A stretch of 43,638 bases of DNA from Akkermansiaceae bacterium (GTDB taxonomy: Bacteria; Verrucomicrobiota; Verrucomicrobiia; Verrucomicrobiales; Akkermansiaceae): positions 1-43,638 of the forward strand of contig JAKMGP010000167.1 of the NCBI GenBank assembly GCA_022424905.1, written 5' to 3'. Positions within the stretch are counted from its first letter, which is position 1, and every line of letters starts with the position of its first letter. The notes under the pieces were generated by a model. It had not been told where the DNA came from and made no database searches. It was given only the letters and a program-made list of their open reading frames with translations. The position numbers and the translations under genes are program-made. This document shows positions 12,907 through 35,856 of this stretch, piece by piece.

Positions 12907-12925
12907 CAGTATGTCCGAGAAGCGA

Positions 12926-13372: not shown

Positions 13373-13408
13373 TTTTTGAAATATGTTTCGGGATTTAGGA
13401 AAGCTGAG

Positions 13409-14128: not shown

Positions 14129-14146
14129 TTTAGTTCGGAGCAGGAA

Positions 14147-14503: not shown

Positions 14504-14537
14504 TTGTAAATATGGAGTTCTGGGTTTTCGTCAGGAT

Positions 14538-15074: not shown

Positions 15075-15101
15075 GGTTCTGTTTTCTGAGTCAGGGATTT
15101 A

Positions 15102-15500
15102 CTACCAAACGAAGGCGATGATCTCGCCACCGACTTTATCCTTCTTGGCCTGATGTCCGGTCATAAGACCTTTAGAGGTCGAAATGAGCGAGATTCCCAT
15201 CCCGTTAAGAACGCGAGGGATTTCTTGGGAACCGGAATACTTTCGTCGTCCACACTTGGAGATCCGCTTGAGATCAGTGAGCGCGGGGACGCCGTCAACG
15301 AACTTGGTCTTAACGACCAGCTCGGGGAACTTTGCCGAGGTGTCGACCTCGTAGTTCCAAATATAGCCCTCCTCCTTGAGGATACGGGCGATTTCCACCT
15401 TCATTTTTGAATGCGGAGCTTTGAATGAATCATTACCAGCGCGTGAAGCATTCTTCAAACGAATGAGAAAGTCAGCGATGGGATCTGTGAGAGTTGCCAT
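15102..15500 (-). CDS. rpsH: 30S ribosomal protein S8
   Basis: A 132-residue protein of standard length. The start ATLTDPIADFLIRLKNASRA and the C-terminal GMGISLISTSKGLMTGHQAK are characteristic. S8 binds helix 21 of 16S rRNA and, in E. coli, represses the spc operon by binding its mRNA around the rplX-rplE junction; a stem-loop lies at the corresponding place here (16180-16214). rpsH directly follows rplE by 26 bases: rpsN (S14), usually between them, is missing. Confidence 0.97.
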   Translation of the reverse strand: MATLTDPIADFLIRLKNASRAGNDSFKAPHSKMKVEIARILKEEGYIWNYEVDTSAKFPELVVKTKFVDGVPALTDLKRISKCGRRKYSGSQEIPRVLNGMGISLISTSKGLMTGHQAKKDKVGGEIIAFVW

Positions 15501-15526
15501 GGTATTAGTTTGTCCAGGTCGTAAAA

Positions 15527-16096
15527 TTAAGCGGCTGCCTCCTCTTTGACATTGTCGCGGAATGGCATGCCGAGGGCTTTGAGCATTGCTTTGGCTTGTG
15601 CATCAGTCTTCGCTGAAGTCACGAAAATGAAGTCAAAGCCAATCTGGCGCTTGATTTGATCAAGCTCGATCTCAGGAAAAATTGCCTGATCCGGGAATCC
15701 AACGGCGTAGTTTCCGCGTCCGTCAAAGGACTTAAAAGGCAGGCCACGGAAATCACGAATGTTAGGACAAGTGATTGCGATGAAACGCTCAAGGAATTCC
15801 CACATACGGGCGCCTCGAAGCGTAACACGAGCACCCACCGCTTCGCCCTCACGGACCTTGAAGTTAGCGACCGATTTCTTGGCAAAAACAACAGAGGCCT
15901 TCTGACCGGTGATCTTTCCGATCTCATCAACCGCATCCTCAACGGCAGCCTTGCGCTCATTGACATAGTGGCCAACGTGAGAGTTGATTGAGATTTTTTC
16001 GAGGCGCGGAACCTCGTTAACATTAGTGAGGCCTAATTCATCTTGGAGAGCCTTGATAAGCTTCTCCTCGTATAGGCACTGGAGTGTTGGTTTCAT
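15527..16096 (-). CDS. rplE: 50S ribosomal protein L5
   Basis: A 189-residue protein, the standard length. It binds 5S rRNA and contacts the P-site tRNA. Family signs are the VPRLEKISINSHVG strand, GQKASVVFAKKSVANFKVRE, VTLRGARMWEFLERFI and a C-terminal FIFVTSAKTDAQAKAML. The gap to rplX upstream is 116 bases, the widest inside the rpsL-secY part of the operon, and contains a stem-loop. Confidence 0.97.
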   Translation of the reverse strand: MKPTLQCLYEEKLIKALQDELGLTNVNEVPRLEKISINSHVGHYVNERKAAVEDAVDEIGKITGQKASVVFAKKSVANFKVREGEAVGARVTLRGARMWEFLERFIAITCPNIRDFRGLPFKSFDGRGNYAVGFPDQAIFPEIELDQIKRQIGFDFIFVTSAKTDAQAKAMLKALGMPFRDNVKEEAAA

Positions 16097-16179
16097 TGTA
16101 TTAGTGGCGGGTCAGCTTGGTTAGAGTGCTTAAGCGCGCGGTTTGTTCCCCTTCCCGATTTGTTCGAGTGGTTGGAACG

Positions 16180-16214
16180 AGCCCGGTTCCTGACACAGTC
16201 AGGGCTTGCGGGCT
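16180..16214 (-). promoter_or_regulatory. Stem-loop at the rplX-rplE junction, candidate S8 translational operator
   Basis: Two perfect 6-bp helices are stacked around a small asymmetric internal loop: AGCCCG/CGGGCT (16180-16185 with 16209-16214) and CCTGAC/GTCAGG (16189-16194 with 16198-16203) around an ACA loop. It overlaps the rplX stop codon, lies 84 bases before the rplE start, and has no T-run, so it is not a terminator. In E. coli the S8 repressor site that controls the spc operon is located at this same junction. The functional reading is inference. Confidence 0.45.
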
Positions 16215-16440
16215 AGACTTTTTTTACATTGGAAAGGTGAATCGGGCCATCAACTTCTTCGATGCCCCCATCCTGATTCTGCTCAGAACGACGAATTGCT
16301 TTTTTCATGACACGAACACCTTCTACAACAACTTGCTCTTTCGCAGCGTTGACAGAAAGGACAGTGCCCTGTTTTCCTTTGTGATTTCCAGAGATCACGA
16401 CGACATCGTCACCTGCTTTCACGTGGGTTTTAATTTTCAT
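16213..16440 (-). CDS. rplX: 50S ribosomal protein L24
   Basis: A 75-residue protein, shorter than the roughly 105-residue E. coli protein, lacking much of the C-terminal part. The KOW core is clear ([20 protein letters not shown], then GKQGTVLSV), followed by a shortened second strand region ending [12 protein letters not shown]24 initiates assembly of the large subunit and lies near the exit tunnel. It follows rplN by 20 bases. Confidence 0.95.
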
Positions 16441-16460
16441 GGATCCGGTAAAGTTTTGAG

Positions 16461-16826
16461 TTAAAGAACCTCGGGAGCGAGGGAGACGATTTTCATGAAG
16501 TTTTTTTCACGAAGTTCGCGAGCGACAGGTCCAAAGATGCGTGAGCCCTTCGGGTTGCCATCCTTGTCGATGATTACGATCGCATTTTCGTCGAAACGAA
16601 GAACCGAACCGTCAGCACGGCGAACAGGATATGCCGTGCGAACGACCACAGCCTTTACAACCGAGCCTTTTTTCACGGCGGCAGTTGGGATGGACTCGCG
16701 AATGTGAGCAGTGATAATATCACCGACACGAGCAGACTTGGTCCGCTTTCCGATGACACCAATCATTTTGGCTTGGCGAGCACCAGTATTATCGGCAACC
16801 GCGACTTTTGATTCCATTTGAAGCAT
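16461..16826 (-). CDS. rplN: 50S ribosomal protein L14
   Basis: A 121-residue protein of standard length. The start [20 protein letters not shown] and the [20 protein letters not shown] and [11 protein letters not shown] stretches identify L14, which contacts 16S rRNA in bridge B8. The first codon at 16826 fits the family N-terminus. It follows rpsQ by 57 bases and begins the part equivalent to the spc operon, with no terminator before it. Confidence 0.97.
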
Positions 16827-16883
16827 GGCGAATTAAGTATCGTTAGAGAGTTTGTATGAATGGCTACTGGAGCCGGGCTTTAA

Positions 16884-17192
16884 TTAGTGGCTCAGAACTT
16901 TGACAAGTTTCCAGCGCTTGAGCTTCGAGATCGGAGTCGTCTCCTCAATACGAACCTTGTCGCCGACAGCGGCTTCACTAGCTTCGTCGTGAGCATAAAA
17001 CTTCTTGGACTGCTTGATGATTTTCTTGAACTTGGGGTGAGGAACACGGTTAGTATATTCAACAACAATTGTCTTTTCCATACCTGTTGACTTAACGATT
17101 CCAACGCGTGTTTTTTTGTTCGCGGTGGATCCCTCGGATGGGACAAAGTCTTTTTTGGCCGGGACCGCTTGGGCTTCCTGATTTTCGGACAT
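16884..17192 (-). CDS. rpsQ: 30S ribosomal protein S17 with a short N-terminal extension
   Basis: A 102-residue protein whose OB-fold core starts around residue 26 (KKTRVGIVKSTGMEKTIVVE) and ends ISKLKRWKLVKVL. Typical S17 is about 80-85 residues; the first 25 residues (E/A/P/K-rich) are extra. S17 binds 16S rRNA helix 11 early in assembly. It lies 40 bases after rpmC. Confidence 0.95.
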   Translation of the reverse strand: MSENQEAQAVPAKKDFVPSEGSTANKKTRVGIVKSTGMEKTIVVEYTNRVPHPKFKKIIKQSKKFYAHDEASEAAVGDKVRIEETTPISKLKRWKLVKVLSH

Positions 17193-17232
17193 CTTTTTTA
17201 AATTGGTTAAAAGTTGGTTTCGATCAGGCTTC

Positions 17233-17433
17233 CTAGGAGGACTTACGCTGATTAATGGCGGTTTTCACCTGTGCAATTTCTCGACGGACAATACTGCGGC
17301 GAGCAGTATTTTCGAGTTGTCCAGTGGCCTGTTGGAGACGGAGTTCGAGTCCCTCCTCCTTTAGCTCACGAAGACGAGTCGAGAGTTCATCGGGACTCAG
17401 CTCGGAAATTTCAGAAAATTTTACTTTGGGCAT
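17233..17433 (-). CDS. rpmC: 50S ribosomal protein L29
   Basis: A 66-residue two-helix protein, the normal size. ELSPDELSTRLRELKEEGLE and the closing RREIAQVKTAINQRK match L29, which sits at the polypeptide exit site beside L23. It lies between rplP and rpsQ as in the classical S10 operon. Confidence 0.95.
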   Translation of the reverse strand: MPKVKFSEISELSPDELSTRLRELKEEGLELRLQQATGQLENTARRSIVRREIAQVKTAINQRKSS

Positions 17434-17484
17434 GACGTGATTCCTTTCGGTCAGTTCAGTGGTTAAAGCTTGATCAGATCAGGC

Positions 17485-17901
17485 TTAGTGATTGTTGCGG
17501 GAAACGAAACGGGTTTCAAATCCAAGCTTATAAGATGCGAGGCGCATGGCTTCGCGAGCTTGGGACTCAGGGACACCACCAACCTCGAAAAGCATGGTGC
17601 CAGGACGAATGACAGCAACCCAAGCATCTACCGAGCCTTTACCCTTACCCATACGAGTTTCAGGTGGGCGGCGAGTGATCGACTTGTGAGGGAAAACCCG
17701 GATCCAGGTCTTACCTTTACGCTTGAGGAAGCGGTTGATGGAAATACGGCAAGCCTCGATCTGACGGTTCGTCATCCATCCACGGCCGAGGGCCTGGAGT
17801 CCGAAGTCACCGAAGCTCACATCGGTGCCACGCTGGGCATTACCACCCCGATTGCCACGGTGTGACTTTCGGAACTTGGTTCTTTTGGGCATTAAAGGCA
17901 T
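17485..17901 (-). CDS. rplP: 50S ribosomal protein L16
   Basis: A 138-residue protein of usual length. [13 protein letters not shown] at the N-terminus and [16 protein letters not shown] in the second half are diagnostic. L16 organises the A-site region of 23S rRNA. Two ATGs three codons apart compete (17901 and 17892); the Shine-Dalgarno sequence at 17910-17915 is 8 bases from the first, which supports 17901. Confidence 0.97.
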
Positions 17902-17909
17902 AATTCTAT

Positions 17910-17915
17910 CCTCCT
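17910..17915 (-). promoter_or_regulatory. Perfect AGGAGG ribosome binding site of rplP
   Basis: On the minus strand AGGAGG is followed by an 8-base spacer and the ATG at 17901. Few genes in this operon have a full Shine-Dalgarno sequence, so this one stands out and decides between the two in-frame ATGs of rplP. Confidence 0.8.
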
Positions 17916-17946
17916 AAATTCTTGGTTTTACGAAATGGGTTATTGT

Positions 17947-18747
17947 CTAGGAAGCAGCTGGCTGGCTTCCACCTTCAGCGGGCTTGTTTTGATTATTATC
18001 CGGGCGGCCACCTCCACCACCACGGCGATCACCACCGCCACGGTTTCCTCCTGGACCTCCTGGACCTCCTGGACCGCGGCGACGCGGGCGATCATGACCT
18101 GGAGGGCGTGCCCCTTTATCCGAATCCTCGTTTTTATTGATCCAGCACTTTACGCCAATAATTCCATAAACAGTCTTGGCTTCCGCGAAACCATAGTCGA
18201 TGGGAACGCGAAGAGTTTGAAGAGGCACCTTTCCTTCGCGATACCACTCAGCACGAGCAATATCAGCACCACCGAGACGACCGGCGCAACGGATACGAAT
18301 TCCGTTAGCCCCAAAGTCCATCGCAGTCTGAACAGCGCGCTTCATCGCACGACGGAAAGCGATTCGGCGTTCGAGCTGGATGACCACCTGCTCGCAGACG
18401 CATTGGGAATCGAGCTCAGGTTTGCGAATCTCAACAATATCGATCTTAACCTGTGAACCCCCAGCGATTTTGGAGATTGCGTTGGTCATAAGCTCGATCT
18501 CAGACCCCTTACGTCCGATAACAAGACCTGGACGAGAGGTATGAAGAGTAACACGCACGCTATTCCAAGCGCGCTCGATGATCACTTTGGCAAGGGCGGC
18601 GCCCTGAAGGCGGCCGGCGATGTATTTCCGGATCGTCAGATCTTCGTGGAGCTTATTCGTGTAGTCTTCGCCTTCGGCATACCACTTGGAGCGCCAGTCT
18701 TTGTTGACCGCGAGGCGGAAACCGATTGGATTAACTTTTTGTCCCAT
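17947..18747 (-). CDS. rpsC: 30S ribosomal protein S3 with Gly/Arg-rich C-terminal tail
   Basis: A 266-residue protein. The core (residues 1 to about 203) has the MGQKVNPIGFRLAVNKDW start, the KH domain with PGLVIGRKGSEIE (73-85), and the C-terminal domain with GANGIRIRCAGRLGGADIAR (146-165). S3 lines the mRNA entry channel and contributes to the ribosome's helicase activity. Residues 204-266 are an extension rich in Gly, Pro, Arg and Asn, with repeated GPGG, NRGGG and DRRGGGGG units, ending in a Pro/Ala/Gly/Ser segment. Many bacteria carry variable S3 tails, but this RGG-like composition parallels the one on S5 in the same operon. The gene lies 31 bases after rplV. Confidence 0.96.
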   Translation of the reverse strand: MGQKVNPIGFRLAVNKDWRSKWYAEGEDYTNKLHEDLTIRKYIAGRLQGAALAKVIIERAWNSVRVTLHTSRPGLVIGRKGSEIELMTNAISKIAGGSQVKIDIVEIRKPELDSQCVCEQVVIQLERRIAFRRAMKRAVQTAMDFGANGIRIRCAGRLGGADIARAEWYREGKVPLQTLRVPIDYGFAEAKTVYGIIGVKCWINKNEDSDKGARPPGHDRPRRRGPGGPGGPGGNRGGGDRRGGGGGRPDNNQNKPAEGGSQPAAS

Positions 18748-18778
18748 GATTCTATAGAGGTAAATTGTTCAGTTTGGC

Positions 18779-19309
18779 TTATTCAGCGGACTCTTTGGCG
18801 GCTTCAGTTTCTTCGACGACCTCAGCAGGAGCTTCAGTTTCTTCGGCAGGAGCTTCAGTTTCTTCGGCAGGAGCTTCCTCTTTCTTAGCAGCAGGCTTGG
18901 CACCAGCCCCAAAGAGAGATTTGATGGTATCGCGTTTCTTGGGTTTGCCAGAGCGTTGCTTTTCTTCAGGAGCCTCGAATTCGTCGGTCAGAGTGATGAA
19001 AATATGACTTTGGCGTTTGCGAATTGCACCAGCGGAACCGCGAGCACGGGGCTTGAAACGCTTCAGAGTGGGTCCTTCCCCTACAACCGCTTCCTTCACG
19101 ATGAGTTCATCGGCCGAGAGCTCATGGTTGTTCTCGGCGTTAGCAATCGCGCTTTCCAAGGTCTTAAAGATGAGGCGAGCAGATTTCTTAGGAGTATATT
19201 TCAACGCGTCAAGAGCATCGGAGACGGGAAGCCCCTGAATTTCGCGAACAACGTGTCGTGCTTTTTTCGGAGAAATCCGAGCGTATTTTGTGGTCGAACG
19301 AACTAACAT
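18779..19309 (-). CDS. rplV: 50S ribosomal protein L22 with acidic repeat tail
   Basis: A 176-residue protein, against about 110 in E. coli. I choose the ATG at 19309: the family N-terminus (RSTTKYARISPKKARHVVRE) starts there, whereas a longer start would overlap the upstream gene. The core (1 to about 112) includes the RFKPRARGSAGAIRKRQSHI hairpin that reaches into the exit tunnel. Residues 113-176 form an extension: a basic part (about 117-143, with GKPKKRD) and then an acidic Glu/Ala/Pro/Thr part with repeated ETEAPAE units. The tail starts from the end of L22 on the ribosome surface near the tunnel exit. It follows an inserted secreted-protein gene by 19 bases. Confidence 0.95.
   Translation of the reverse strand: MLVRSTTKYARISPKKARHVVREIQGLPVSDALDALKYTPKKSARLIFKTLESAIANAENNHELSADELIVKEAVVGEGPTLKRFKPRARGSAGAIRKRQSHIFITLTDEFEAPEEKQRSGKPKKRDTIKSLFGAGAKPAAKKEEAPAEETEAPAEETEAPAEVVEETEAAKESAE
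18831..18872. repeat. Tandem 21-bp repeat in the rplV tail
   Basis: Two adjacent identical 21-bp units (GCTTCAGTTTCTTCGGCAGG plus A on the plus strand) encode the repeated seven-residue ETEAPAE motif on the minus strand. A diverged copy precedes them (18801-18830). The array keeps frame and explains how the acidic tail may expand or shrink by slippage. Confidence 0.85.
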
Positions 19310-19328
19310 CAGTTTGTCGGGTGAGATT

Positions 19329-20036
19329 TTATAGAGTAATGATTTTTGCGAGGTCACCGGGTTGAACCGTGACATCAGGATTGTTGAGGGGAAGCAAGAG
19401 GAGTCCGCTTACATCGGCCCTGACGAGACCAACCGAAGAGTCACAAATGTGTGTGCCAGAGCGTTCGATGCGAAAACGCATTCCGACTCCAACATCTGCA
19501 TCGGAACCCGCGTTGATCACAACGAGGCCAGATTCGGAATCAACTGTAACAACGCGAGCTTCCCGGATACTGCCTTTCTCGATCTTGCGCTTAGGCTGCT
19601 GACGCTGTCCAAGCGCAACTTCGAGTTCGCGAAGCTTAACCTCTACTTCCTTGCGGAATTCAGGATTCGAAGCAACAGCGGTGCGCAGATAGTTTTTAAT
19701 GATCGGTAGAAGGCTGCCAAGAGAATCCTCGAGCTGGACGAGGTTCTCGCGCGCAACTTGATAATCAGAAACGGCGTTAAGCAGCTTGGTGTCGCGGTCC
19801 TCAAAGAGATCCCTGCCCCGTAGAGCGAGATATTCGCGAATCTCTTTCAAAGCCTTCGTCTTGCTGTCCTCTCTTTCGAGCGATGCGCTCAAGCTCGTAT
19901 TCAAATTCGCTAGCTGAAGTTTCAACTGACGATTCTCGCGCTCAAGCTTTTCGGACATGGTCTCCTGAGCACCAGCTACCATTGCACCGAGAGCAAAAAG
20001 CCCGGTGAGGAGTAACTTGGTGGATGGAAAACGCAT
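19329..20036 (-). CDS. Secreted coiled-coil protein inserted between rpsS and rplV
   Basis: A 235-residue protein read from the ATG at 20036. This start gives a good signal peptide (MRFPSTKLLLTGLFALGAMV, cleavage expected after A-G-A at residue 23); upstream starts overlap rpsS. The mature protein has a long heptad-like helical region (about 28-150, with EKLERENRQLKLQLANLN) and a C-terminal beta-rich domain (about 165-235, with VVTVDSESGLVVINAGSDAD, then VGVGMRFRIER, and a closing QPGDLAKI). The end domain resembles small beta-barrel modules such as the FlgT C-terminal type; that resemblance is a guess. It is exported and has no evident ribosomal role, yet is spaced 19 bases from each neighbour in the S10 gene order, so co-expression with ribosomal proteins is expected. 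Confidence 0.8.
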   Translation of the reverse strand: MRFPSTKLLLTGLFALGAMVAGAQETMSEKLERENRQLKLQLANLNTSLSASLEREDSKTKALKEIREYLALRGRDLFEDRDTKLLNAVSDYQVARENLVQLEDSLGSLLPIIKNYLRTAVASNPEFRKEVEVKLRELEVALGQRQQPKRKIEKGSIREARVVTVDSESGLVVINAGSDADVGVGMRFRIERSGTHICDSSVGLVRADVSGLLLLPLNNPDVTVQPGDLAKIITL

Positions 20037-20055
20037 AATGAAGGTTTCTAGAAGC

Positions 20056-20325
20056 TTACTTTTTACCAATTCCGCCGTGAGCCTTGAAAATACGAGTAGG
20101 CGAAAACTCACCTAGCTTGTGGCCCACCATGTTTTCGGAAACGAAAACAGGAATGAAGGTTTTTCCGTTGTGAACGGCGAAGTTGTGACCGACGAAGTCC
20201 GGAGTAATCATGGAGCGGCGGCTCCAGGTCTTGATGGGCTTTTTATTGCCCGACTCGACTGCGGCATCAATCTTGAGCAGAAGCTTCTGATCGACGTAAG
20301 GACCTTTTTTCAATGAACGTGCCAT
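20056..20325 (-). CDS. rpsS: 30S ribosomal protein S19
   Basis: An 89-residue protein of standard length. [18 protein letters not shown] at the start, the [15 protein letters not shown] segment and [19 protein letters not shown] are diagnostic. S19 lies in the 30S head and contacts the A-site and P-site tRNA region with S13. It follows rplB by 33 bases; rplV does not follow directly because a secreted-protein gene intervenes. Confidence 0.97.
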
Positions 20326-20358
20326 AATGAAATTTTGTTAAGTGACTTGCAGTTTAAA

Positions 20359-21201
20359 TTACTTGCGCTTGGACTTGCGACGGTCTTCCACAATGAATGT
20401 TGAATTCTTGTGCTTGCGGCGAGTTTTCTGCCCCTTGGTGTGTCCCCAAGGAGATTTGAGGTGTTGACGACCACCCCCTGATTTAGATTTACCTTCACCA
20501 CCGCCATTGGGGTGATCGACAGGATTCATACACATTCCACGAACGGAAGGACGCTTGCCCTGCCATCGGGTCCGCCCAGCCTTGCCAGAAACCTCGTTCA
20601 TGTGATCGCGATTACCGACCGTGCCGATAGTTGCGTAGCTTTCTTGGTGAAATTTACGAAGTTCACCTGAAGGCATCTTAACGAATGCATAACCCTCATC
20701 GCGAGAAGCCAGAATCGCTTGCTGACCAGCAGCACGAGCAATCTTACCACCGGATCCGGGACGGATTTCGATATTGTGAATGGCAGTTCCGAGAGGAACA
20801 TTTTTGAGAGGCATAGCATTACCAACCTTTGGCTCAACGCTTTCCCCAGCCTCAACCTTGTGTCCATCAGTGAGACCAGATGGGGCAAGAATGTAGGACT
20901 TGGTTCCATCCTTATATTCCAGGAGTGCGATGCGGCAGGTTCGATTAGGATCGTATTCAATCCCGACTACAGTCGCGACCTCGTCGCGCTTAGTTCTCTT
21001 GAAGTCGATGAGACGATACTTCTTTTTATGGCCACCGCCGATGTGGCGCATGGTGATACGGCCCTGGTTATTGCGACCACCGGAGCGTTTTTTGACTTCG
21101 AGGAGGCTTTTTTCAGGCTTTGACTTGGTAATCTCGTCAAATCCCGGAAGCATCTTGTAACGATTTGCGGGAGTGACGGGCTTAAAACTTTTCAGAGGCA
21201 T
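20359..21201 (-). CDS. rplB: 50S ribosomal protein L2
   Basis: A 280-residue protein of normal length. [40 protein letters not shown], the [20 protein letters not shown] region and the strictly conserved [21 protein letters not shown] (with the functionally important His near the peptidyl-transferase centre) are all present. It ends in the usual basic tail. It follows rplW by 40 bases. Confidence 0.98.
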
Positions 21202-21241
21202 TAGAATGATCCTTTCTGAGTGGGGTTACTAAAATTATAAA

Positions 21242-21526
21242 TTAGAAGAGGCCGAGGGAGTCACCGTCCTTAAGGCGGACGATGGCTTTCTTCCAGGCGG
21301 GAGTGCGTCCAGCATCAGCGCGACGACGGCGCTTAGCCTTACCTGCACAATTGGCAGTGCGGACACCGAGAACTTTCACTTTGAAGTGCTTCTCGACGGC
21401 ATTTTTAATCTCAATCTTGTTGGCGTGACGATCGACCTTTAAGGTGTAGGCGTTCTCCTTCTCCTGAAGAAGAGTGGCCTTTTCCGACATGCGGACAGTA
21501 TCGATGATGCGGTAAATATCTCTCAT
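21242..21526 (-). CDS. rplW: 50S ribosomal protein L23
   Basis: A 94-residue protein, the usual length. The N-terminal IDTVRMSEKATLLQEKENAY and the loop with a Lys/Arg-rich AGKAKRRRRADAG identify L23, which sits at the tunnel exit and docks trigger factor and SRP. The first ATG (21526) fits the family pattern better than the internal Met at residue 13. It is 15 bases after rplD. Confidence 0.95.
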   Translation of the reverse strand: MRDIYRIIDTVRMSEKATLLQEKENAYTLKVDRHANKIEIKNAVEKHFKVKVLGVRTANCAGKAKRRRRADAGRTPAWKKAIVRLKDGDSLGLF

Positions 21527-21541
21527 GGCTAGCTGAATGGT

Positions 21542-22147
21542 TTAGGCGGTGCGTTGAGCGAGGGTTTCGAGGGCGTCATCAACGATAATAACATCACCCC
21601 AAAAGAGGAGCTCTTCCACGTTGACGTTCTCGGCGGTTTGTAGGAGTGCCCATGTTAAGTTGCGCTCGGCACGGTAAGTTTCTTCACTAAAGGACTTCCC
21701 AACGATGATCACGCGAGCGGCGTCGGAAACTTCACGAATAGCCGTGACGATGTCCTTCGTTTTTCCAGAAGCAACCTCGAAGGAATTGACGCTATGGACC
21801 ACACCTTCATTTATTTTTTCTCCAAGAACGCGGCGCAAAGCGAGAGTGCGGACTTTCTTGGAAACCGTTTTAGCGTAGGAGCGGTTGCGAGGCCCGAAAG
21901 CAACGCCACCCCCGACAAAGATCGGAGCTTTCCGATCCCCGTGGCGGGCACCACCGGTGCCTTTCTGACGATACATCTTTTTACCAGTTCCGCGGACCTC
22001 TCCGCGAGTCTTGGCTTGAGCGGTTCCGGAACGGCGATTGGCTTGGTATGCAACGACGAGGTCGTGCACGGCTTGGCTGCCCTTGGAACCATCAGCGATG
22101 AGCTGAATCTTGGCCTTTTCGGCGTCTTGAATTGTGAATGCTGACAT
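21542..22147 (-). CDS. rplD: 50S ribosomal protein L4
   Basis: A 201-residue protein of standard length. The extended tunnel loop is recognisable by GTAQAKTRGEVRGTGKKMYR and QKGTGGARHGDRKAPIFVGG; the C-terminal part has the VIIVGKSFSEE region. In E. coli L4 also represses its own operon, but no S10 leader equivalent is placed directly upstream here because rpsJ follows fusA. It lies 27 bases after rplC. Confidence 0.97.
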   Translation of the reverse strand: MSAFTIQDAEKAKIQLIADGSKGSQAVHDLVVAYQANRRSGTAQAKTRGEVRGTGKKMYRQKGTGGARHGDRKAPIFVGGGVAFGPRNRSYAKTVSKKVRTLALRRVLGEKINEGVVHSVNSFEVASGKTKDIVTAIREVSDAARVIIVGKSFSEETYRAERNLTWALLQTAENVNVEELLFWGDVIIVDDALETLAQRTA

Positions 22148-22174
22148 GGATCAGGTTCTTTCTAAAACTGGGAT

Positions 22175-22828
22175 TTACTTGGCTGCGGTTCTTTTAAGAG
22201 CTGGACGAACGGTGACATAAGCACCGTTGTGTCCGGGAACCGAACCGGAGATGAGGAGGACTCCGTCTTCCTGACGGACTTGAACAATTTTGAGATTTTG
22301 GGTGGTGCGACGGACAGTCCCATCATGTCCGGGCATCTTCTGGTTTTTCCATACTCGAGCAGGGGTCGAGCCAGCACCAATCGCACCAGTTCTCCGGTGC
22401 ATCATGTGCCCGTGACCGTCAGGCTGACCATTGTGGCCGTGACGCTTCACGTTACCTTGAAAACCTTTTCCTTTTGTGGTTCCGATCACGTCAACCCACT
22501 GACCGTCCTCGAAAAGAGCAGCGCCCGGATGACCCTCTTCCTTATTAGGAAGATCGGCATCGCTGTCGAAGCGAAACTCTTTAATGAGTTTTTTGGCACC
22601 GGTCGCCCCTTGCTTTGCCTGGTGAGTGCGCTCAGGAAGATTGACGCGGCGCTCCTTCTGATCGTCATATGCGACCTGAATAGCAGAGTAGCCATCAGTC
22701 TCCGTGGTTTTCACCTGAAGCAATTCATTTCCGTTCACGTCGACGACAGTGACGGGGATCATGCAGCCTGCCTCTGCGTCAAAAACGCGAGTCATACCGA
22801 CTTTTTTACCGAGGATTCCGAGTGACAT
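22175..22828 (-). CDS. rplC: 50S ribosomal protein L3
   Basis: A 217-residue protein of usual length. SLGILGKKVGMTRVFDAEAG opens the protein, and VIGTTKGKGFQGNVKRHGHN and RRTGAIGAGSTPARVWKNQK form the conserved central region that reaches the peptidyl-transferase centre. The Gln in the GHNGQPDGHG segment is a candidate target for PrmB-type methylation. It follows rpsJ by 43 bases. Confidence 0.97.
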   Translation of the reverse strand: MSLGILGKKVGMTRVFDAEAGCMIPVTVVDVNGNELLQVKTTETDGYSAIQVAYDDQKERRVNLPERTHQAKQGATGAKKLIKEFRFDSDADLPNKEEGHPGAALFEDGQWVDVIGTTKGKGFQGNVKRHGHNGQPDGHGHMMHRRTGAIGAGSTPARVWKNQKMPGHDGTVRRTTQNLKIVQVRQEDGVLLISGSVPGHNGAYVTVRPALKRTAAK

Positions 22829-22871
22829 GGGTCTAGGTTCCGTTTGGATAATTTAGTTTAAAGAGGAAAAA

Positions 22872-23177
22872 TTAAATGTGGATCTGAATATCAACACCAG
22901 CGGGAAGATTCAGCTTCTTGAGCTCATCAACAGTACGGGCAGTGGGATCAACGATATCGAGGAGGCGCTTGTGTGTGCGAACTTCAAACTGGTCAGCAGC
23001 CTTTTTGTTGACGTGAACCGAGCTATTAACGGAAAATTTTTCGATCCGTGTTGGCAGAGGGACAGGGCCGGCGACTTTAGCACCGGTGCGCTTAGCAGTC
23101 TCGACAATCTCGACAGTGGAGCGATCGATAGCCCGGTGGTCAAATGCGCGAAGGCGGATGCGGATTTTCTGGTTCAT
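22872..23177 (-). CDS. rpsJ: 30S ribosomal protein S10
   Basis: A 101-residue protein, the usual length. [40 protein letters not shown] and [15 protein letters not shown] are diagnostic. S10 lies in the 30S head and also, in E. coli, pairs with NusB in antitermination. It follows fusA by 43 bases; the tuf gene that commonly separates fusA and rpsJ is not present. Confidence 0.97.
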
Positions 23178-23220
23178 GATGAAAAGGTTTCTGGTGGGAT
23201 GATTGTTATTTTAAGTAGGC

Positions 23221-25380
23221 TTAGTATCCGCCACCGCGTTCGGCGACGAGTTTATCAACTACGTTGCGAGGCACTTCCTCGAAGCACTTAGGCTCCATCG
23301 AATAAGAAGCACGGCCGGATGAAAGGGTGCGAACGTCCGTGGAATATCCGAACATCTCGGAAAGGGGGACGGTTGCGGAAACATTAGCAACAATGCCTTT
23401 GGTCTTGATCTCTTGAATTTGACCACGGCGGCGATTAAGATCACCCATGATGTCTCCTTGAAACTCGTCGGGTGTCGCAATTTCGACATCCATGATAGGC
23501 TCCAAAAGAATAGGCGAAGCCGCCTTCAAAGCCTCCTTGATCGCAAAGATAGCGGCAATCTTGAATGAGTTGTCACTGGAATCGACTTCGTGGAAGGAAC
23601 CGCCGGTAACGCTTGCGTGGACATCAACAACCGGATAGCCGGCTACCAAACCGTTCGTAAGGGCTTCCTTGATCCCCTTCATGATAGCCGGGATGTATTC
23701 TTTTGGAAAATCGCTCGCGGAAGCATTATCCTCGGTAGTGATCCCCTCACCTTGTTTGTTAGGCGAGAGGCTGAGAGTGACATGACCGTATGCCGCCTTG
23801 CCAGCAAGAGCAGCATCACGGATGAATTTTCCATCGCCCTGAGCAGTTGCAGATACTGTTTCGCGATAAGCGATTTGTGGTTTACCCACATTCGCCTGCA
23901 CCCCAAACTCACGTTTGAGGCGATCGATGATGACTTCGAGGTGAAGCTCGCCCATTCCAGCAATGATGGTCTGCCCAGTCTCCTCGTCAGTCTTGACCAC
24001 AAAGGTAGGATCTTCGTCAGAAAGGCGATCGAGTCCGATGACCATCTTGTCCGAGTCAGCCTTAGTTCTGGGCTCAACAGCCATCGAGATCACAGGCTCA
24101 GGAAAACTTGGTGGCTCTAAGAGCACGCCGGCTTGTTGGTGGGAAAGAGTGTCACCAGTTTGAACATTCTTGAGGCCAACGAGAGCCGCGATGTCACCAG
24201 CAAAGCAGGTCTCAATTTCTTCGTGCTTATCAGCCTGAACCTGAATCAAACGACCCACACGCTCCTTGGTTTGCGTCCGCGGATTATAAATCATGTCTCC
24301 CTTGGAGACGGTTCCACTGTAAATTCGGAAAAAAATAAGTTTACCGAAATATTTGTCAGCCCAAAGCTTGAACGCGAGGGCACAGAACTTAGCGTCGTCA
24401 GTCGTCTCAACCTTGACGATCTTTTCTTCGCTTTCAGGATCAAGCCCTTCGGCGGCAGGAATCTCTAGTGGACTTGGAAGATAGTCAACAACCGCATCGA
24501 GGAGATACTGGACTCCCTTGTTTTTGAAAGCTGAACCACCAGCGATTGGCACCAACTGGTTGGCGATTGTAGCGCGGCGAAGACCAGCCTTGAGATCAGC
24601 AACCGAAATCGGCTCCTCCATGAGGAACATCTCGCCAATCTGCTCATCGACATCTGCAACAGCCTCGAGTAGTTCCGAATATGCCTCCCCAGCAAGGGCG
24701 AGCTGATCGGCGTCCAAATCAGCGACGTCGTAAGTCGAACCAAGGATGTCATCATCCTTGTAAAGAACAGCTTTTTTATTGAGAACGTCGATTTGACCCC
24801 GAAGATTTTCCTCAGAACCGATTGGAATCAAAATGCGAACGGTGCGTGCACCGAGCTTTTCCTGGACTTCTTTGACCGCAGCGTCGAAATCAGCCCCAAT
24901 TCGGTCCATCTTGTTGACGAAGACGATACGGGGAACATTGTAAGTGGTTGCCTGGCGCCAAACTGTTTCGGATTGGGGTTGGACTCCGGCAACTCCACAA
25001 AAAACGACAATTGCACCATCCAAAACACGAAGCGATCGTTCTACCTCTGCCGTGAAATCAACATGACCGGGGGTATCGATAATGTTGATACGCTGGTTGT
25101 CACCGGTAAAGAGCTTTGAGACCCCGTCTTCTTTTTGCTGCATCCACTGGCAAGTGACAGCAGCTGAAGTGATGGTGATCCCGCGCTCCCGTTCTTGTTC
25201 CATATGATCAGTGGTGGTTGCACCATCGTGCACCTCCCCGATCCGATGGATCATTCCTGTGTAGAAGAGTATACGCTCGGTAAGCGTGGTCTTTCCCGCA
25301 TCGATGTGCGCAGCAATCCCAATGTTCCGTGTCCTCTCAAGAGGAACGGGACGGGTTGGGGATTGCGCAACTTTGCTCAT
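23221..25380 (-). CDS. fusA: Elongation factor G
   Basis: A 719-residue translational GTPase that catalyses translocation. GTPase motifs are complete: AHIDAGKT (residues 24-31), the switch I region with RERGITITSAA, DTPGH (102-106) and NKMD (156-159). Domains II to V follow, including the domain IV loop near the end that enters the decoding site and the closing region with SGRASYSMEPKCFEEVP. It has the usual length and start (MSKVAQ then NIGIAAHID). It lies 20 bases after rpsG and 43 before rpsJ. Confidence 0.98.
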   Translation of the reverse strand: MSKVAQSPTRPVPLERTRNIGIAAHIDAGKTTLTERILFYTGMIHRIGEVHDGATTTDHMEQERERGITITSAAVTCQWMQQKEDGVSKLFTGDNQRINIIDTPGHVDFTAEVERSLRVLDGAIVVFCGVAGVQPQSETVWRQATTYNVPRIVFVNKMDRIGADFDAAVKEVQEKLGARTVRILIPIGSEENLRGQIDVLNKKAVLYKDDDILGSTYDVADLDADQLALAGEAYSELLEAVADVDEQIGEMFLMEEPISVADLKAGLRRATIANQLVPIAGGSAFKNKGVQYLLDAVVDYLPSPLEIPAAEGLDPESEEKIVKVETTDDAKFCALAFKLWADKYFGKLIFFRIYSGTVSKGDMIYNPRTQTKERVGRLIQVQADKHEEIETCFAGDIAALVGLKNVQTGDTLSHQQAGVLLEPPSFPEPVISMAVEPRTKADSDKMVIGLDRLSDEDPTFVVKTDEETGQTIIAGMGELHLEVIIDRLKREFGVQANVGKPQIAYRETVSATAQGDGKFIRDAALAGKAAYGHVTLSLSPNKQGEGITTEDNASASDFPKEYIPAIMKGIKEALTNGLVAGYPVVDVHASVTGGSFHEVDSSDNSFKIAAIFAIKEALKAASPILLEPIMDVEIATPDEFQGDIMGDLNRRRGQIQEIKTKGIVANVSATVPLSEMFGYSTDVRTLSSGRASYSMEPKCFEEVPRNVVDKLVAERGGGY

Positions 25381-25400
25381 CAGACTCGCGGGAAAAAAAA

Positions 25401-25874
25401 TTAGAAGCGGAAGTGGGCGAAGGCACGGTTTGCCTGGGCCATTTTGTGCACGTCGTCGCGTTTGCGAACCGAGTTGCCGGTATTGTTGGCAGCATCCTTG
25501 ATCTCGTTGGCGAGAGCGACGTGCATTGGGGTACCCTTCTTGGCACGAGCGAAAGTGATAATCCAGCGCATGCCGAGGGACTCGGAGCGATTTGAGTCCA
25601 CCTCTAATGGCACCTGATAGGTGGCTCCACCGACACGACGTGATTTAACCTCTACGCGGGGCTTCGCATTCTCGATAGCGCGATTGACGATCTCAAGAGG
25701 ATCAATCGTATCAGTGCCTTCGTTGGCGCGATCGATAGCGGCATAGACGATACGCTCTGCGAGGGAACGTTTGCCATCTTTCATCACTTTCGAGATCAAG
25801 CGACCGACAACTTGACTGTCGAACTTGGGATCCTTGTAAACTTTGGCTGGGTAGACTCTTTTTCTGCGTGCCAT
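25401..25874 (-). CDS. rpsG: 30S ribosomal protein S7
   Basis: A 157-residue protein of standard length. ARRKRVYPAKVYKDPKFDSQ, the PRVEVKSRRVGGATYQVPLE hairpin and a basic C-terminus with RKRDDVHKMAQANRAFAHFR are diagnostic. S7 nucleates assembly of the 30S head and, in E. coli, represses the str operon at the rpsL-rpsG junction. Here that junction is only 30 bases, too short for the E. coli-type operator to fit between the genes. Confidence 0.97.
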   Translation of the reverse strand: MARRKRVYPAKVYKDPKFDSQVVGRLISKVMKDGKRSLAERIVYAAIDRANEGTDTIDPLEIVNRAIENAKPRVEVKSRRVGGATYQVPLEVDSNRSESLGMRWIITFARAKKGTPMHVALANEIKDAANNTGNSVRKRDDVHKMAQANRAFAHFRF

Positions 25875-25904
25875 GAAATTGGTTGGTCAGAGATTAAAAT
25901 AAAA

Positions 25905-26276
25905 TTATTTAGGCTTTTTGGCACCATACTTTGAGCGCCCCTGTTTGCGGCCGTCCACCCCAAGGGTATCGAGTGAGCCTCGGACGATGTGATAACGCAC
26001 ACCTGGCAAATCCTTCACTCGACCACCACGGATAAGAACAATCGAGTGTTCTTGGAGGTTATGACCCTCACCGCCAATGTAAGCGATGACTTCATACCCG
26101 TTGGTAAGGCGGACCTTGGCAACCTTACGAAGCGCGGAGTTAGGCTTCTTTGGTGTGCGAGTGTAAACTTGGAGACAAACGCCACGGCGCTGTGGGCAGT
26201 TATTCAAAGCCGGTGACTTGGACTTGGTTACTGCTTTCTTACGACCTTTGCGGACGAGTTGATTAATGGTGGGCAT
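25905..26276 (-). CDS. rpsL: 30S ribosomal protein S12
   Basis: A 123-residue protein of standard length and the first gene of the long operon. The decoding loops are wild-type with respect to streptomycin: [11 protein letters not shown] retains the lysines at 43-44, and GRVKDLPG retains Lys88, next to Asp89, the residue that is methylthiolated in many bacteria. Upstream lie a candidate promoter and a long stem-loop. The ATG at 26276 opens the family N-terminus ([13 protein letters not shown]). Confidence 0.98.
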
Positions 26277-27322: not shown

Positions 27323-27958
27323 ATGATCCGCGGATTGATCTTTGATCTTGATGGTACGCTTGTTGATTCCCTTCCTGGAATCGCCATTGCTCTCAACCAT
27401 GCTTTGGACGACATTAAGCTGCCTAACCATCCGCAAGATGTCGTGGAAACCTTCATTGGCGACGGCTTACTTAATCTCATCACGCGAGCCCTTGGCCCCG
27501 ATCACTTCAACCAGCAAGACGAACTTCTATCTGCTTTTCAGAAGCACTATTCCGAGGATTGGAAAAACGGAACTTCTCCATACCCTGGTATGACCTCCCT
27601 TCTTGAAGAACTCCACCATAACAACATCCCGATGGCCGTACTTTCCAACAAACCTCATGGATACACTGTCGAGATCGTTAAGACGCTTTTCCCGCAAAAC
27701 ATTTTCAGCCAGGTTCGCGGCCATCGAGACGGATACCCGAAAAAACCAGACCCTACCACGGCCCACCAAATCATTAGTGATTGGAATCTTAAAGCGAAGG
27801 AGGTCGCTTACATCGGAGACTCTACCGTCGATCTAGCCACCGCCCGGAACGGCGACATGAAGCCACTTATTTTTTCTTGGGGCTATGGCACACCCACCGA
27901 CTTCCCTCTCTTGGACTCGGTTGATGATTTAAGGAATGCCATTCTCGAGGCAAGTTGA
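27323..27958 (+). CDS. HAD-superfamily phosphatase, phosphoglycolate phosphatase-like
   Basis: A 211-residue protein from the ATG at 27323; the frame is open upstream, but this start puts motif I at the N-terminus as usual. Motif I is FDLDGTLVDS (Asp8 nucleophile, Asp10 acid/base), motif II is the Ser of AVLSNKP, motif III is the Lys of KKPDP, and motif IV is GDSTVDLATARN. The cap is the small helical type of the Gph/PGP group. It probably dephosphorylates 2-phosphoglycolate arising from DNA repair or oxygenation, but HAD substrate ranges overlap, so the assignment is to subfamily only. The stop codon is TGA, which matters for judging the in-frame TGA at 35495. Confidence 0.88.
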   Translation: MIRGLIFDLDGTLVDSLPGIAIALNHALDDIKLPNHPQDVVETFIGDGLLNLITRALGPDHFNQQDELLSAFQKHYSEDWKNGTSPYPGMTSLLEELHHNNIPMAVLSNKPHGYTVEIVKTLFPQNIFSQVRGHRDGYPKKPDPTTAHQIISDWNLKAKEVAYIGDSTVDLATARNGDMKPLIFSWGYGTPTDFPLLDSVDDLRNAILEAS

Positions 27959-32028: not shown

Positions 32029-33987
32029 TCAATCCTTACGCGCGAACACCAAGATAGTTCGACAGGGCAAATAGATCTTCATCCACCCCTTCACGGCAGA
32101 ATAGTCAATTGAGCTGTCTGCCCTATTAGCCCCGCCGAACTTAGGATCGTCCGACGACAAGATCAACCGATAGCTCCCCTCTTGATGAACCGGGAATTCA
32201 TAATCAACCACCGAACTCGAAGGACTCAAATTCACCGCAAAAATGAGATCACCTCGTTCAAACTGAATGCACTGGTTTACTTGATCCAAATTCAGCATTT
32301 TGGCCCCCGATGCGGCGAGAACCTTGTCTGCAATATTCATCATAGCTTCATCAAAAGCCTCCAACTCACGGTATTTTAGATCAGGATGATCCACCAGAGA
32401 CCACTGCCGTCGGGTATATTTATAACTCCAATCATTCCCTTCACGGGGGAAATCAACCCACTCAGGGTGGCCAAATTCATTACCCATAAAATTGAGGTAG
32501 CCTTCCCCACCGAGGACCAAAGTCATGAGACGAAGGATCTTGTGCAGTGCCATTCCCCGATTGATCACCACATCATCATCGCCTTTCTTCATGTGATGAT
32601 ACATCGCGGCATCCATTAGTCGGAAGGCGAGAGTCTTGTCACCCACCAAGGCTTGGTCGTGACTCTCAGCATAAGCGATGGTCTTTTCCCCGCAGCGACG
32701 GTTTGTGAGGGTATGGTAAATCTCATCAAGGTTCCAGTCCTCATCTCTAATGTGCTCAAGCAACTTAATCCAATAGTCAGGGATGCCCATCGCAAGACGG
32801 AAATCAAAACCGATTCCCCCTTCATTTAGAGGGCGGCAAAGCCCTGGCATTCCGCTCATATCCTCCGCGATACTCAGAGCATCAGGATTGATCTCATGGA
32901 TTAATTGATTCGCTAGCTGCAGATAAGTCACCGCTTCCCAATCCACGCCATCGTGAAAGTATTTATCGTAGTGATCAAAGTTAATATTCCCATGATGATG
33001 ATAGAGCATGGAGGTTACGCCATCGAAACGGAAACCATCGAAACGATACTCGGTCATCCAATACGCCAGATTTGAAAGTAGGAACTGGCACACCTCAGAA
33101 CGACCATAATCAAAAAGTCGTGAATCCCACTCCGGGTGGTCGCGCTTGTGAAAATATAGCCCTTCCTCCCCGTCAAACGATGATAAGCCTTCCGAAAAAT
33201 TTTTCACCGAATGCGAATGGACAATATCCATTAACACCGCGACCCCCATCCCATGAGCTGAATCGATGAGATATTTTAAATCCTCGGCTGACCCACATCG
33301 CGAACTAGGCGCAAAATAATTAGCTACATGATACCCAAACGATCCATAATAAGGATGCTCAGCAACCGCCATGAGCTGAACTACATTGTAGCCCAACCGA
33401 GCTAGGCGCGGTAAAACTTGCTCCGCAAATTCGCGATAGGTTCCTACTCGAAACTCCTCGGTAGCCATCCCGACGTGGGCTTCGTAGATTTTAGGATGTT
33501 GCACGGCCGCTGGAGCAGCATTTTCCCAAGAATATTTAGACGATTCCTGCACTTGGGCTGAAAACTCCCTAGTTTCCTCATCTTGGACCACAAAAGTAGC
33601 ATGAGAAGGAATGCGGTCGTGTGCACCATTCACTCCCTCGATATGAACTTTATACAAATCGCCATGCCTTAGTGCATTCCCTGCAACCCTCACCTCCCAG
33701 ACTCCCTGTTCCGATAGACGCCGTAAAGGATAGTCCTTCCGTGACCACCCACAAAAATCTCCAGTGAGGAAAAGTGCCCTGGCCCTTGGGGCCCATTCCC
33801 GAAATACCCAATCATTGCCCTCGCGATGAAGACCTAATTTCTGATGACTTGTCGCAAATTCCAGCAGTGGTCCAAATTCGTGCAAACGTTCCTTAAATCT
33901 TGCAATCCGATCTCCGATCTCCGTGGAATATGGCTCTAGCCAAGGATCAACTGCCACCAACCCAAGAACTTTTTTTTCTCCACTCAC
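32029..33987 (-). CDS. glgB: 1,4-alpha-glucan branching enzyme, eukaryotic-like (GH13_8-type)
   Basis: A 652-residue enzyme that makes alpha-1,6 branches in glycogen. An N-terminal CBM48-type domain (about 55-150) precedes the GH13 barrel. Catalytic residues are Asp322 (GFRFDGV), Glu375 (SIAEDMSG) and Asp444 (ESHDQ). Long stretches match the eukaryotic branch rather than classical bacterial GlgB: EAHVGMATEEFRVGTYREF, NVVQLMAVAEHPYYGSFGYH, MDIVHSHSVKNFSEGLSSFD and FDGVTSMLYHHHG all have close counterparts in human GBE1. Such GH13_8-type enzymes also occur in some bacteria. No glgA or glgC adjoins it. Its start lies 85 bases from the divergent membrane protein gene. The stop is TGA. Confidence 0.93.
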   Translation of the reverse strand: MSGEKKVLGLVAVDPWLEPYSTEIGDRIARFKERLHEFGPLLEFATSHQKLGLHREGNDWVFREWAPRARALFLTGDFCGWSRKDYPLRRLSEQGVWEVRVAGNALRHGDLYKVHIEGVNGAHDRIPSHATFVVQDEETREFSAQVQESSKYSWENAAPAAVQHPKIYEAHVGMATEEFRVGTYREFAEQVLPRLARLGYNVVQLMAVAEHPYYGSFGYHVANYFAPSSRCGSAEDLKYLIDSAHGMGVAVLMDIVHSHSVKNFSEGLSSFDGEEGLYFHKRDHPEWDSRLFDYGRSEVCQFLLSNLAYWMTEYRFDGFRFDGVTSMLYHHHGNINFDHYDKYFHDGVDWEAVTYLQLANQLIHEINPDALSIAEDMSGMPGLCRPLNEGGIGFDFRLAMGIPDYWIKLLEHIRDEDWNLDEIYHTLTNRRCGEKTIAYAESHDQALVGDKTLAFRLMDAAMYHHMKKGDDDVVINRGMALHKILRLMTLVLGGEGYLNFMGNEFGHPEWVDFPREGNDWSYKYTRRQWSLVDHPDLKYRELEAFDEAMMNIADKVLAASGAKMLNLDQVNQCIQFERGDLIFAVNLSPSSSVVDYEFPVHQEGSYRLILSSDDPKFGGANRADSSIDYSAVKGWMKIYLPCRTILVFARKD

Positions 33988-34072: not shown

Positions 34073-34996
34073 ATGATCTCGATGAGCAATCGTAGACTTC
34101 CCAGCAAACTCAAGAAGAGCTCCCGCTCCCGCCGGAAGCGCCGTGCCAGTTGGGGTGCAAGTCTGCTGAATGTTCACCAGCGAGCCCAAATTCAGGTCAA
34201 TCTTCGAGGCGATCGCAGACGCCGCGGCATGACCCGTCAGGCTGCCATCGCTGACACCGCGAAAGCGAGTGATCTTTACGAGGACGAGTCACTCAGCCTC
34301 CCGCTAACCCGCCGCATTCTACATTGGGGACTTGGAATCTTGCTGATGCCACTCTGCTTCATCACGGCCATTACTCTTATGAAAGAAAGCGGTGAGGAGC
34401 GCATTTTTCAGACGATTTGGTATTCCACCGAACTTCTTTGCTTTATCGCAGGAATTGGTTCGATGATCAGTTGGTTTATCGCCGGGATCGCCAATGACCG
34501 TCTTCTATACCTATACGTTCTTGGACACGAAATGACCCACGCGATGTTTGTTTACGTCTGCGGTGGGCGCATCAGCGCGATTCACTTCAGCACGGAAGGA
34601 GGGTACGTGATGACGAATAAGTCCAATATTCTCATCGCTCTTTCTCCTTACTTTATTCCTTTTTGGTCAGCGGTCCTCATCTCCCTTCACAGCTTTATTA
34701 GCCTCTGGTGGAACATCCCAGCCGGAGGCTTGATCCTAACCGGACTGCTTGGCTTCACCTGGACTTTCCACATTATTTGGACCGTCTGGATGATCCCCAA
34801 GGACCAACCCGATCTCAAAGAAAACGGCACCTTTTTTTCCCTGATCATTATCATCTTCGCCAATCTCATTCTCTTCACCTTAATCCTATGCGCCACGTCA
34901 AGAGAAGTTCAACTCAGCAGCTTTCTCTTCCAATGGTGGAACAACTTCCTTGACCTTGTCGAGTCGCTCCTCCGCCTTGTCCCGTCATACACTTAG
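34073..34996 (+). CDS. M50-like membrane metalloprotease with long basic N-terminus
   Basis: A 307-residue membrane protein. The first 56 residues are strongly basic (runs such as RSRRKRR and RGDRRRR) and presumably cytoplasmic. About five or six hydrophobic helices follow from residue 82. The zinc-binding HExxH motif is in a membrane segment: YVLGHEMTHAMFVYVCGG with His152, Glu153 and His156, followed by GGRISAIHFSTEGGYVMTNKSN as in site-2-type (M50) proteases and their relatives. A candidate third metal ligand is the Asp in IPKDQPDLKE (about 241-250), which is less certain. Substrate and regulation are unknown. It diverges from glgB, with 85 bases between them. An ATG at 34082 is an alternative start. 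Confidence 0.7.
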   Translation: MISMSNRRLPSKLKKSSRSRRKRRASWGASLLNVHQRAQIQVNLRGDRRRRGMTRQAAIADTAKASDLYEDESLSLPLTRRILHWGLGILLMPLCFITAITLMKESGEERIFQTIWYSTELLCFIAGIGSMISWFIAGIANDRLLYLYVLGHEMTHAMFVYVCGGRISAIHFSTEGGYVMTNKSNILIALSPYFIPFWSAVLISLHSFISLWWNIPAGGLILTGLLGFTWTFHIIWTVWMIPKDQPDLKENGTFFSLIIIIFANLILFTLILCATSREVQLSSFLFQWWNNFLDLVESLLRLVPSYT

Positions 34997-35110: not shown

Positions 35111-35800
35111 ATGAAAAAAACCATCTTAACAACCATCGCATCACTTATGTTGGCAGGCCTCGGCCCAGCCCGCACTTGGACTAGTGCTGATGGCTCCAAA
35201 ACTTTCGAAGGGGACTTAGTCTCCTGCGGTGATAATTCGGTGACCGTTAAGCTCGGTATCAAGCAGATGACCTTCAGCCTCGCCCTCCTTTCTGAGGAGG
35301 ATCAAAAATGGGCCAAAGAAGAGGGGGTTAAAATTGCAGCAGCTGAAGAAAATAAGGAGGAAGCCGCTCAATTCATGGATGGCGACTTTGGGAAGGCTCT
35401 CAAAAAGCTGCAAAAACTCGATGGAGAAGCCTTTGTCGATTACGAACTAGAGGATGCTCCTAAATATTTCCTTCTCTACTTCTCGGCTAGCTGGTGACCA
35501 CCTTGTCAAAAAGGAGCTCCTCAGTTTGCGGAGCAATACAATAAGGAAATTGGCCCTAATCCTAATCTTGAGATGATCCACATCTCTATGGACCGCGCCG
35601 AAAATGATGCTCTGAAATGGGCCAAGTCCTTCAAGCAACCATGGCCCATTATGCTACAAAAGGACACCAATCAAAAAAAATTGGTAACGCCTTACAACGT
35701 TCGGGGAGTCCCCACCTATATCCTTGTGGATCGGGAAGGCAAGGAAGTCGCCCGTGGCAAAGCTGCAGCCCTTGCCGCAGCCAAAAAAGACGAAGCCTAA
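35111..35800 (+). CDS. Thioredoxin-like protein, probable selenoprotein (in-frame TGA at the active site)
   Basis: Read through one in-frame TGA (35495-35497) the frame encodes 229 residues. A signal peptide (about 1-20) is followed by an SHD1-like domain (RTWTSADGSKTFEGDLVS to about 72), then a thioredoxin fold from about residue 90. The TGA is codon 129 and gives FSASW-U-PPCQKGAPQFAEQY, that is, the active-site motif W-C-P-P-C with its first Cys replaced. The fold continues normally past it, including LEMIHISMDRAEN and the cis-proline loop VRGVPTYILVDREGK, and ends at a TAA. TGA is an ordinary stop elsewhere (27956, 32029). Selenocysteine is favoured by its exact position and by the stem-loop at 35501-35546. 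A sequencing error or pseudogene is the alternative. The oxidoreductase would act in the periplasm. Confidence 0.75.
35501..35546 (+). promoter_or_regulatory. Candidate bacterial SECIS element behind the in-frame TGA
   Basis: An upper helix GCTCC (35516-35520) with GGAGC (35530-35534) is capped by a C35522-G35528 pair closing a five-base loop AGTTT (35523-35527), with a G in the second loop position. A lower helix TTGT (35503-35506) with ACAA (35538-35541) is separated by an internal loop, and CCTT/AAGG (35501-35504 with 35543-35546) is an alternative base pairing. The loop starts 25 bases after the TGA, within the range usually given for bacterial SECIS loops (about 16-37). The element overlaps coding sequence, as bacterial SECIS elements do. 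Confidence 0.6.
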
Positions 35801-35822: not shown

Positions 35823-35856
35823 ACGACGATCGAGATTTTCCCGATCGTCGTTTTTT
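35823..35856 (+). terminator. Strong intrinsic terminator of the thioredoxin-like gene
   Basis: A perfect 10-bp stem ACGACGATCG (35823-35832) with CGATCGTCGT (35842-35851) closes a 9-base loop and is followed by six Ts (35851-35856). It sits 22 bases behind the TAA at 35798-35800, beyond the in-frame TGA. This shows that the transcription unit ends after the full-length frame, not after the TGA. Confidence 0.92.

Follow-up and report, generated by a model that had tools for sequence, protein, structure and literature searches.

Positions 1 to 43,638 of contig JAKMGP010000167.1, from Akkermansiaceae bacterium assembly GCA_022424905.1, are analysed here as a whole and termed the window. On its forward strand, at 35111..35800, lies a thioredoxin-like gene with an in-frame TGA. 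The reading frame runs from an ATG at 35111 to a TAA at 35798-35800. The TGA at 35495-35497 is the sole interruption, flanked by 128 codons before and 100 sense codons after. The standard open reading frame (ORF) stops at 35497. Full-length relatives support a coding sequence of 229 amino acids. The readthrough protein has the active site W-U-P-P-C, where U129 is the predicted selenocysteine (Sec), at the first position of U-P-P-C. This reading of the TGA draws on TGA and cysteine (Cys) codons in homologues. The resolving cysteine, C132, is encoded by TGT at 35504..35506 and is invariant in 35 aligned sequences. We conclude that 35111-35800 is very probably a single gene and that it encodes a thioredoxin-like selenoprotein with Sec at codon 129; the product is probably exported.

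Consistent with the initial annotation, which had the frame continuing past a TGA at the first active-site Cys into the rest of a thioredoxin fold, the frame is open to the TAA and matches Thioredoxin_8 (PF13905). The match covers residues 118-211 (35462..35743, forward strand), with the TGA near the domain start (E 2.6e-16; 60.2 bits against a Pfam cut-off of 27). As read from the sequence, the (C/U)xxC and the cis-Pro-place proline expected of this family are both present, at residues 129-132 and P201. The proline sits in V-P-T of cis-proline type (residues 200-202), in line with the cis-proline loop that had been claimed. Further Pfam matches were to AhpC-TSA, Thioredoxin_2, Thioredoxin and Redoxin. 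By sequence and fold, the closest solved relatives are tryparedoxin, ResA, StoA and TlpA; rows of this structure look-up lie mostly within residues 87-229. Members of the ResA/TlpA group are exported proteins. The thioredoxin domain appears, from these matches, to be TlpA/tryparedoxin-type. None of the NCBIfam named families ResA, StoA, DsbE and TlpA reached its cut-off (best 46.6 bits against 170), and a PHROGs search gave no match.

At the N-terminus, residues 1-20 (35111..35170, forward strand) resemble a signal peptide by eye, and relatives have similar N-termini. Residues from about 21 to 75 (35171..35335, forward strand) would form a small SHD1-like beta domain, with four strands predicted in 21-56. 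This label, given in the initial annotation, is plausible from relatives, since 10 of 35 hit SHD1 (PF03983) with an E-value of 1 or lower (7.6e-7 for the best), although a search allowing E-values up to 10 gave no SHD1 match for the window copy, which does not reach the Pfam cut-off. Ten relatives scanned one by one gave at best 20.9 bits against a cut-off of 23.7. Three other proteins of the same genome (L106, L107 and L108) carry the same SHD1-like N-terminal piece, followed in one of them by a SASA esterase domain.

A terminator-like hairpin and a run of T follow the TAA (35823..35856, forward strand; fold -15.7 kcal/mol). Hence, the message probably spans the part after the TGA. A separate pattern scan did not list this hairpin among its results. 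Elsewhere TGA ends genes in the usual way. The frames at 27323-27958 and 32029-33987, cited earlier as examples of TGA as an ordinary stop, do end in TGA (27956-27958 and, on the minus strand, 32029-32031). Stop codons of 17 hand-picked window ORFs were TAG in nine, TAA in seven and TGA in one; TGA is rare. A mechanical scan, judged by eye only, found 34 further places in the window where a TGA separates two open stretches (at least 60 codons before and at least 40 after). A lone TGA of this kind is frequent. Hence, the weight of evidence rests on homology and on selection after the TGA.

The readthrough protein matches 158 of 195 genomes in a sample of the family (E 1e-8 or better). Named-sequence matches add eleven close Verrucomicrobiota relatives and five further ones from Bacteroidota. 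Judging from record titles, many of the relatives' metagenome-assembled genomes (MAGs) are marine. When homologues were aligned at the TGA, as the initial annotation had proposed, codon 129 was readable at 101 places: TGA in 77, and Cys in the other 24 (TGC 20, TGT 4). Nothing else occurred. The set is non-random, because 20 loci were fetched for rows without a stop (all 20 proved to be TGC or TGT), while another 11, the named loci, duplicate loci from genomes with G handles. With repeats removed, the distinct coding sequences number 66 with TGA and 24 with Cys; four of the latter are distant Bacteroidota loci (L061-L064). TGA-bearing homologues include some that are only about 37% identical across almost the whole length, and about 31% in the case of tandem copies. 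Nineteen Cys homologues from the same family, in genomes without selA, were read (L086-L104). One copy, at G160:C13:42665-43346 (L031, L055), is disrupted upstream of its TGA, with the two pieces in separate frames; it may be a pseudogene or a MAG error.

Purifying selection acts on the codons after the TGA. By the Nei-Gojobori method, their ratio of nonsynonymous to synonymous rates (dN/dS) was 0 to 0.23 against 10 relatives. In four of the five pairs computable for both parts, it was lower after the TGA than before. Over the 100 codons after the TGA, L021 and the window differ by 15 synonymous and 4 nonsynonymous changes. Conserved residues continue into the C-terminal part of the 35 aligned sequences. 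Locus L022 differs from 35111-35800 by 35.5 synonymous and 18.5 nonsynonymous changes upstream of the TGA, and by 5 and 0 downstream, a pattern suggestive of intragenic recombination or of a mosaic assembly of the gene.

The host genome encodes the selenocysteine machinery. The window corresponds to contig C323 in a MAG of 4.05 Mb (347 contigs, 92.8% complete, 5.3% contaminated). The initial annotation had suggested a search for selA, selB, selC and selD, and all four are present. The tRNA-Sec gene, on C58, scores 54.4 bits, over the Rfam cut-off, and ARAGORN calls it tRNA-SeC(tca). The others are selA on C165 (487.8 bits), selB on C16 (312 bits) and selD on C8 (381.4 bits), which has its own in-frame TGA within A-S-C-G-G-U-A-S-K. 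The Rfam tRNA-Sec model alone is non-discriminating, as it matches 14 of 14 control genomes, five over cut-off; these are presumably serine tRNAs. Hence, ARAGORN was run on the best match and selA was used for the family comparison. The SelB model also touches, at 24859-25326, a 719-residue window gene on the minus strand (23221-25380), probably elongation factor G. This gene belongs to a dense run of mostly small genes at 9398-26276 (minus strand), which from gene size and order is probably a ribosomal protein operon.

Presence of the TGA form accompanies selA. In the family sample selA was found in 70 genomes, 69 over cut-off. It occurs in 58 of 64 genomes with the TGA form and in 0 of 51 with only an uninterrupted form. 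These 64 and 51 genomes come from the matches listed whose rows cover residue 129, and among the 51, direct reading of the codon was confined to the fetched ones. The other matching genomes had rows that did not reach the site or fell outside the listing. Genomes G044 and G073, with both kinds of row, were counted as TGA; G150, which has TAG, and G072, whose match is truncated by the end of a contig, were excluded. The TGA form lacks selA in G060, G095, G106, G110, G115 and G151. Five of these six have a TGA-containing selD over cut-off, and G106 has a broken fragment with TGA. Hence, incomplete assembly is the likely cause. Twelve genomes have selA and no TGA copy among the matches listed. 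Two genomes absent from the selA list, G161 (L110) and G101 (L111), carry an uninterrupted, full-length selD over cut-off, perhaps for selenouridine or other selenium use.

In a tree of 84 rows, one branch (support 98/98) divides the Sec forms (64) from the Cys forms (20); the tree carries a long-branch warning and is midpoint-rooted. Of 288 genomes sampled across the phylum, 24 give a match at E 1e-20, with TGA occurring only in rows from this family; the codon is unread in the outer genomes, and few Sec-using genera are included. A Cys ancestor with one gain of Sec would fit this pattern.

A putative selenocysteine insertion sequence (SECIS) hairpin, GCUCCUC-AGUUU-GCGGAGC, lies at 35516..35534 on the forward strand and begins 21 bases beyond the U of the UGA. 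Its stem has one U.C mismatch. Among the 66 distinct Sec genes, 64 have the five-base loop A-G-U-U-N and two have A-G-G-U-U. Of six stem pairs counted, all form in 23 genes, five in 42 and four in one. For 29 distinct Sec hairpins the mean is 5.24 of six pairs, against 3.17 +/- 0.17 in synonymous recodings (0 of 1000 reach the observed value); the hairpin was picked from single folds of the very sequences then tested. Loops of the Cys genes vary, the commonest being ACAGC (7 of 24). A bacterial SECIS is a stem-loop just past the UGA whose small apical loop contains a guanosine; the recoding control and loop conservation point to such an element here. The selD gene of the same genome (L018:1531-1575) is a selenoprotein gene too, and the hairpin after its TGA shares the AGUUU loop. 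The selD Sec site was located in 21 of 28 loci, with the hairpin loop beginning 35 bases after the UGA. Those 21 loops read AGUUU in 12 and, by eye, AGUCU in six and other sequences in three.

Several observations weigh against a selenoprotein with a SECIS at this site. The source is a MAG with the contamination stated above, and its sel genes lie on contigs other than that of the thioredoxin gene. Contamination is an unlikely origin for them, because selA occurs in 25 of 27 genomes of the genus in the family sample, the window genome included. The single branch separating Sec from Cys forms implies that the selA association reflects one evolutionary event and not many independent ones. Among the 64 TGA-form genomes, G160 and G095 each have another stop inside the matched stretch, and in one of the five pairs (L028) dN/dS is higher after the TGA (0.233) than before (0.111). 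The remainder concern the hairpin. Twenty-three distinct Cys hairpins also exceed their recodings (3.39 pairs against 2.71 +/- 0.19; 1 of 1000), RNAalifold found no common structure in the gapless 54-base alignment of 66 sequences, and mean folding energies of Sec and Cys sequences are alike (-11.6 and -11.4 kcal/mol). The window hairpin has its mismatch and a single-sequence fold z of only -1.96.

The same evidence decides between other explanations of the TGA. A sequencing or assembly error, turning a Cys codon into TGA, would be conceivable in a MAG. It is scarcely credible when an identical TGA marks the same residue in all 66 distinct coding sequences, from separate assemblies and down to the low identities given above; recurrence in separate assemblies of the same genus itself disfavours a base error. 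A pseudogene, or a truncated gene whose real product has 128 amino acids, would agree with the standard ORF end and with the broken copy in G160. We consider this very improbable given purifying selection after the TGA, conserved residues into the C-terminal part and the terminator-like hairpin beyond the TAA. The frame would be open whatever residue the TGA encodes, so that reading as tryptophan or another standard residue, or general suppression, could also be imagined. This too is hardly to be believed, as TGA ends other window frames, only Cys codons substitute where the position was read, the TGA form accompanies selA and the genome has a tRNA-Sec(TCA). Decoding of this UGA as Sec, as first proposed in the initial annotation, is well supported by the comparisons: TGA or Cys codons only at codon 129, the sel genes, selection after the TGA, and the conserved hairpin that follows it.

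We propose that SelB, with Sec-tRNA and GTP, would bind the hairpin at 35516-35534 and insert selenocysteine at the UGA. Less certainly, the protein may act in the cell envelope, where the selenolate of U129 could attack disulfides or similar oxidised groups and C132 could resolve the selenenylsulfide. A DsbD-type membrane protein might then re-reduce the selenoprotein, and the SHD1-like domain might serve attachment or substrate choice. We infer an envelope disulfide reductase function, together with export, partner and substrate. A selenoprotein whose main work is something else, such as peroxide or methionine sulfoxide reduction, is an unlikely but tenable alternative. The AhpC-TSA and Redoxin models match, and Sec is well suited to peroxide chemistry. 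Conversely, the U-x-x-C motif with cis-proline and the closest solved relatives, all disulfide oxidoreductases, favour disulfide reduction.

The least ordinary feature is the occurrence of Sec copies in head-to-tail arrays of two or three. Such arrays were found in 15 fetched loci, with one in-frame TGA per gene. Fourteen have two genes (L040, L041, L042, L045, L046, L048, L049, L066, L067, L068, L069, L071, L072 and L083) and L081 has three. As the ORFs were drawn, spacing between array genes is 20-64 bases in 13 of the 15 loci. In 12 of the 15, the first gene itself ends in TGA.

Immediately upstream in the window is a gene for 307 amino acids (34073-34996) without a Pfam match. In five close relatives it is found at 86-96% identity. 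Neighbourhoods were compared across the 40 loci L021-L060, where the shortness of many flanks prevents a decision. The upstream gene was found in eight (L021, L022, L031, their twins L050, L051 and L055, plus L056 and L057), equating to five genomes. The neighbouring sulfatase keeps this position only in L022/L051, in which the contig runs out partway through it; L033 and L047 carry distant sulfatase frames at other places.

Standard gene calling halves such genes. At least one listed TGA copy occurs in 64 of the 195 family-sample genomes, with the result that some of their redox proteins are misread. Since related genomes carry one architecture in both a Sec and a Cys form, retention and loss of Sec become testable. 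A broader proposal seems to us evenly balanced between right and wrong. By this, a lineage-wide, undescribed family of exported selenoproteins, joining an SHD1-like domain to a UxxC thioredoxin, marks Sec-using Akkermansiaceae. The family would have arisen once by Cys/Sec exchange and, in some genera, expanded into head-to-tail arrays with two or three Sec genes, whose copies might act on each other or on distinct partners in the envelope.

The initial annotation suggested that a Sec version of this architecture had not been described, which holds in part. A UxxC thiol-disulfide isomerase-like selenoprotein was reported from the Sargasso Sea in 2005 (PMC1088965), and tables of later reviews place this kind under pfam13905 Thioredoxin_8 (2022; PMC9312934) and cd02966 (2026; PMC13188914). 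Hence, UxxC thioredoxin-like selenoproteins are an already known kind, to which the window gene adds a member. Like the window protein, the 2005 protein combines UxxC and Thioredoxin_8 in marine bacteria (PMC1088965, PMC9312934). It differs in that an SHD1-like N-terminal domain goes unmentioned in the passages available, the two being compared by description only. Listings and passages of the open-access literature yielded neither an SHD1-like fusion with a UxxC thioredoxin nor tandem Sec copies. The Global Ocean Sampling (GOS) survey describes Trx-like 1 selenoproteins (COG0526) as a pooled class that is likewise thioredoxin-like with UxxC; the fusions named in its domain-fusion section involve Prx, UGSC, Prx-like 3 and SelD, none being SHD1-like with UxxC (PMC2398784). 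ResA, StoA, TlpA, DsbE and tryparedoxin share the thioredoxin fold and an equivalent C-x-x-C site, but have Cys for Sec, and the window protein scores far under their NCBIfam cut-offs. The Cys homologues L086-L104 resemble the window gene in length and domain order, with W-C-(G/P)-P-C, and differ from it in having TGC or TGT at codon 129 and varied hairpin loops.
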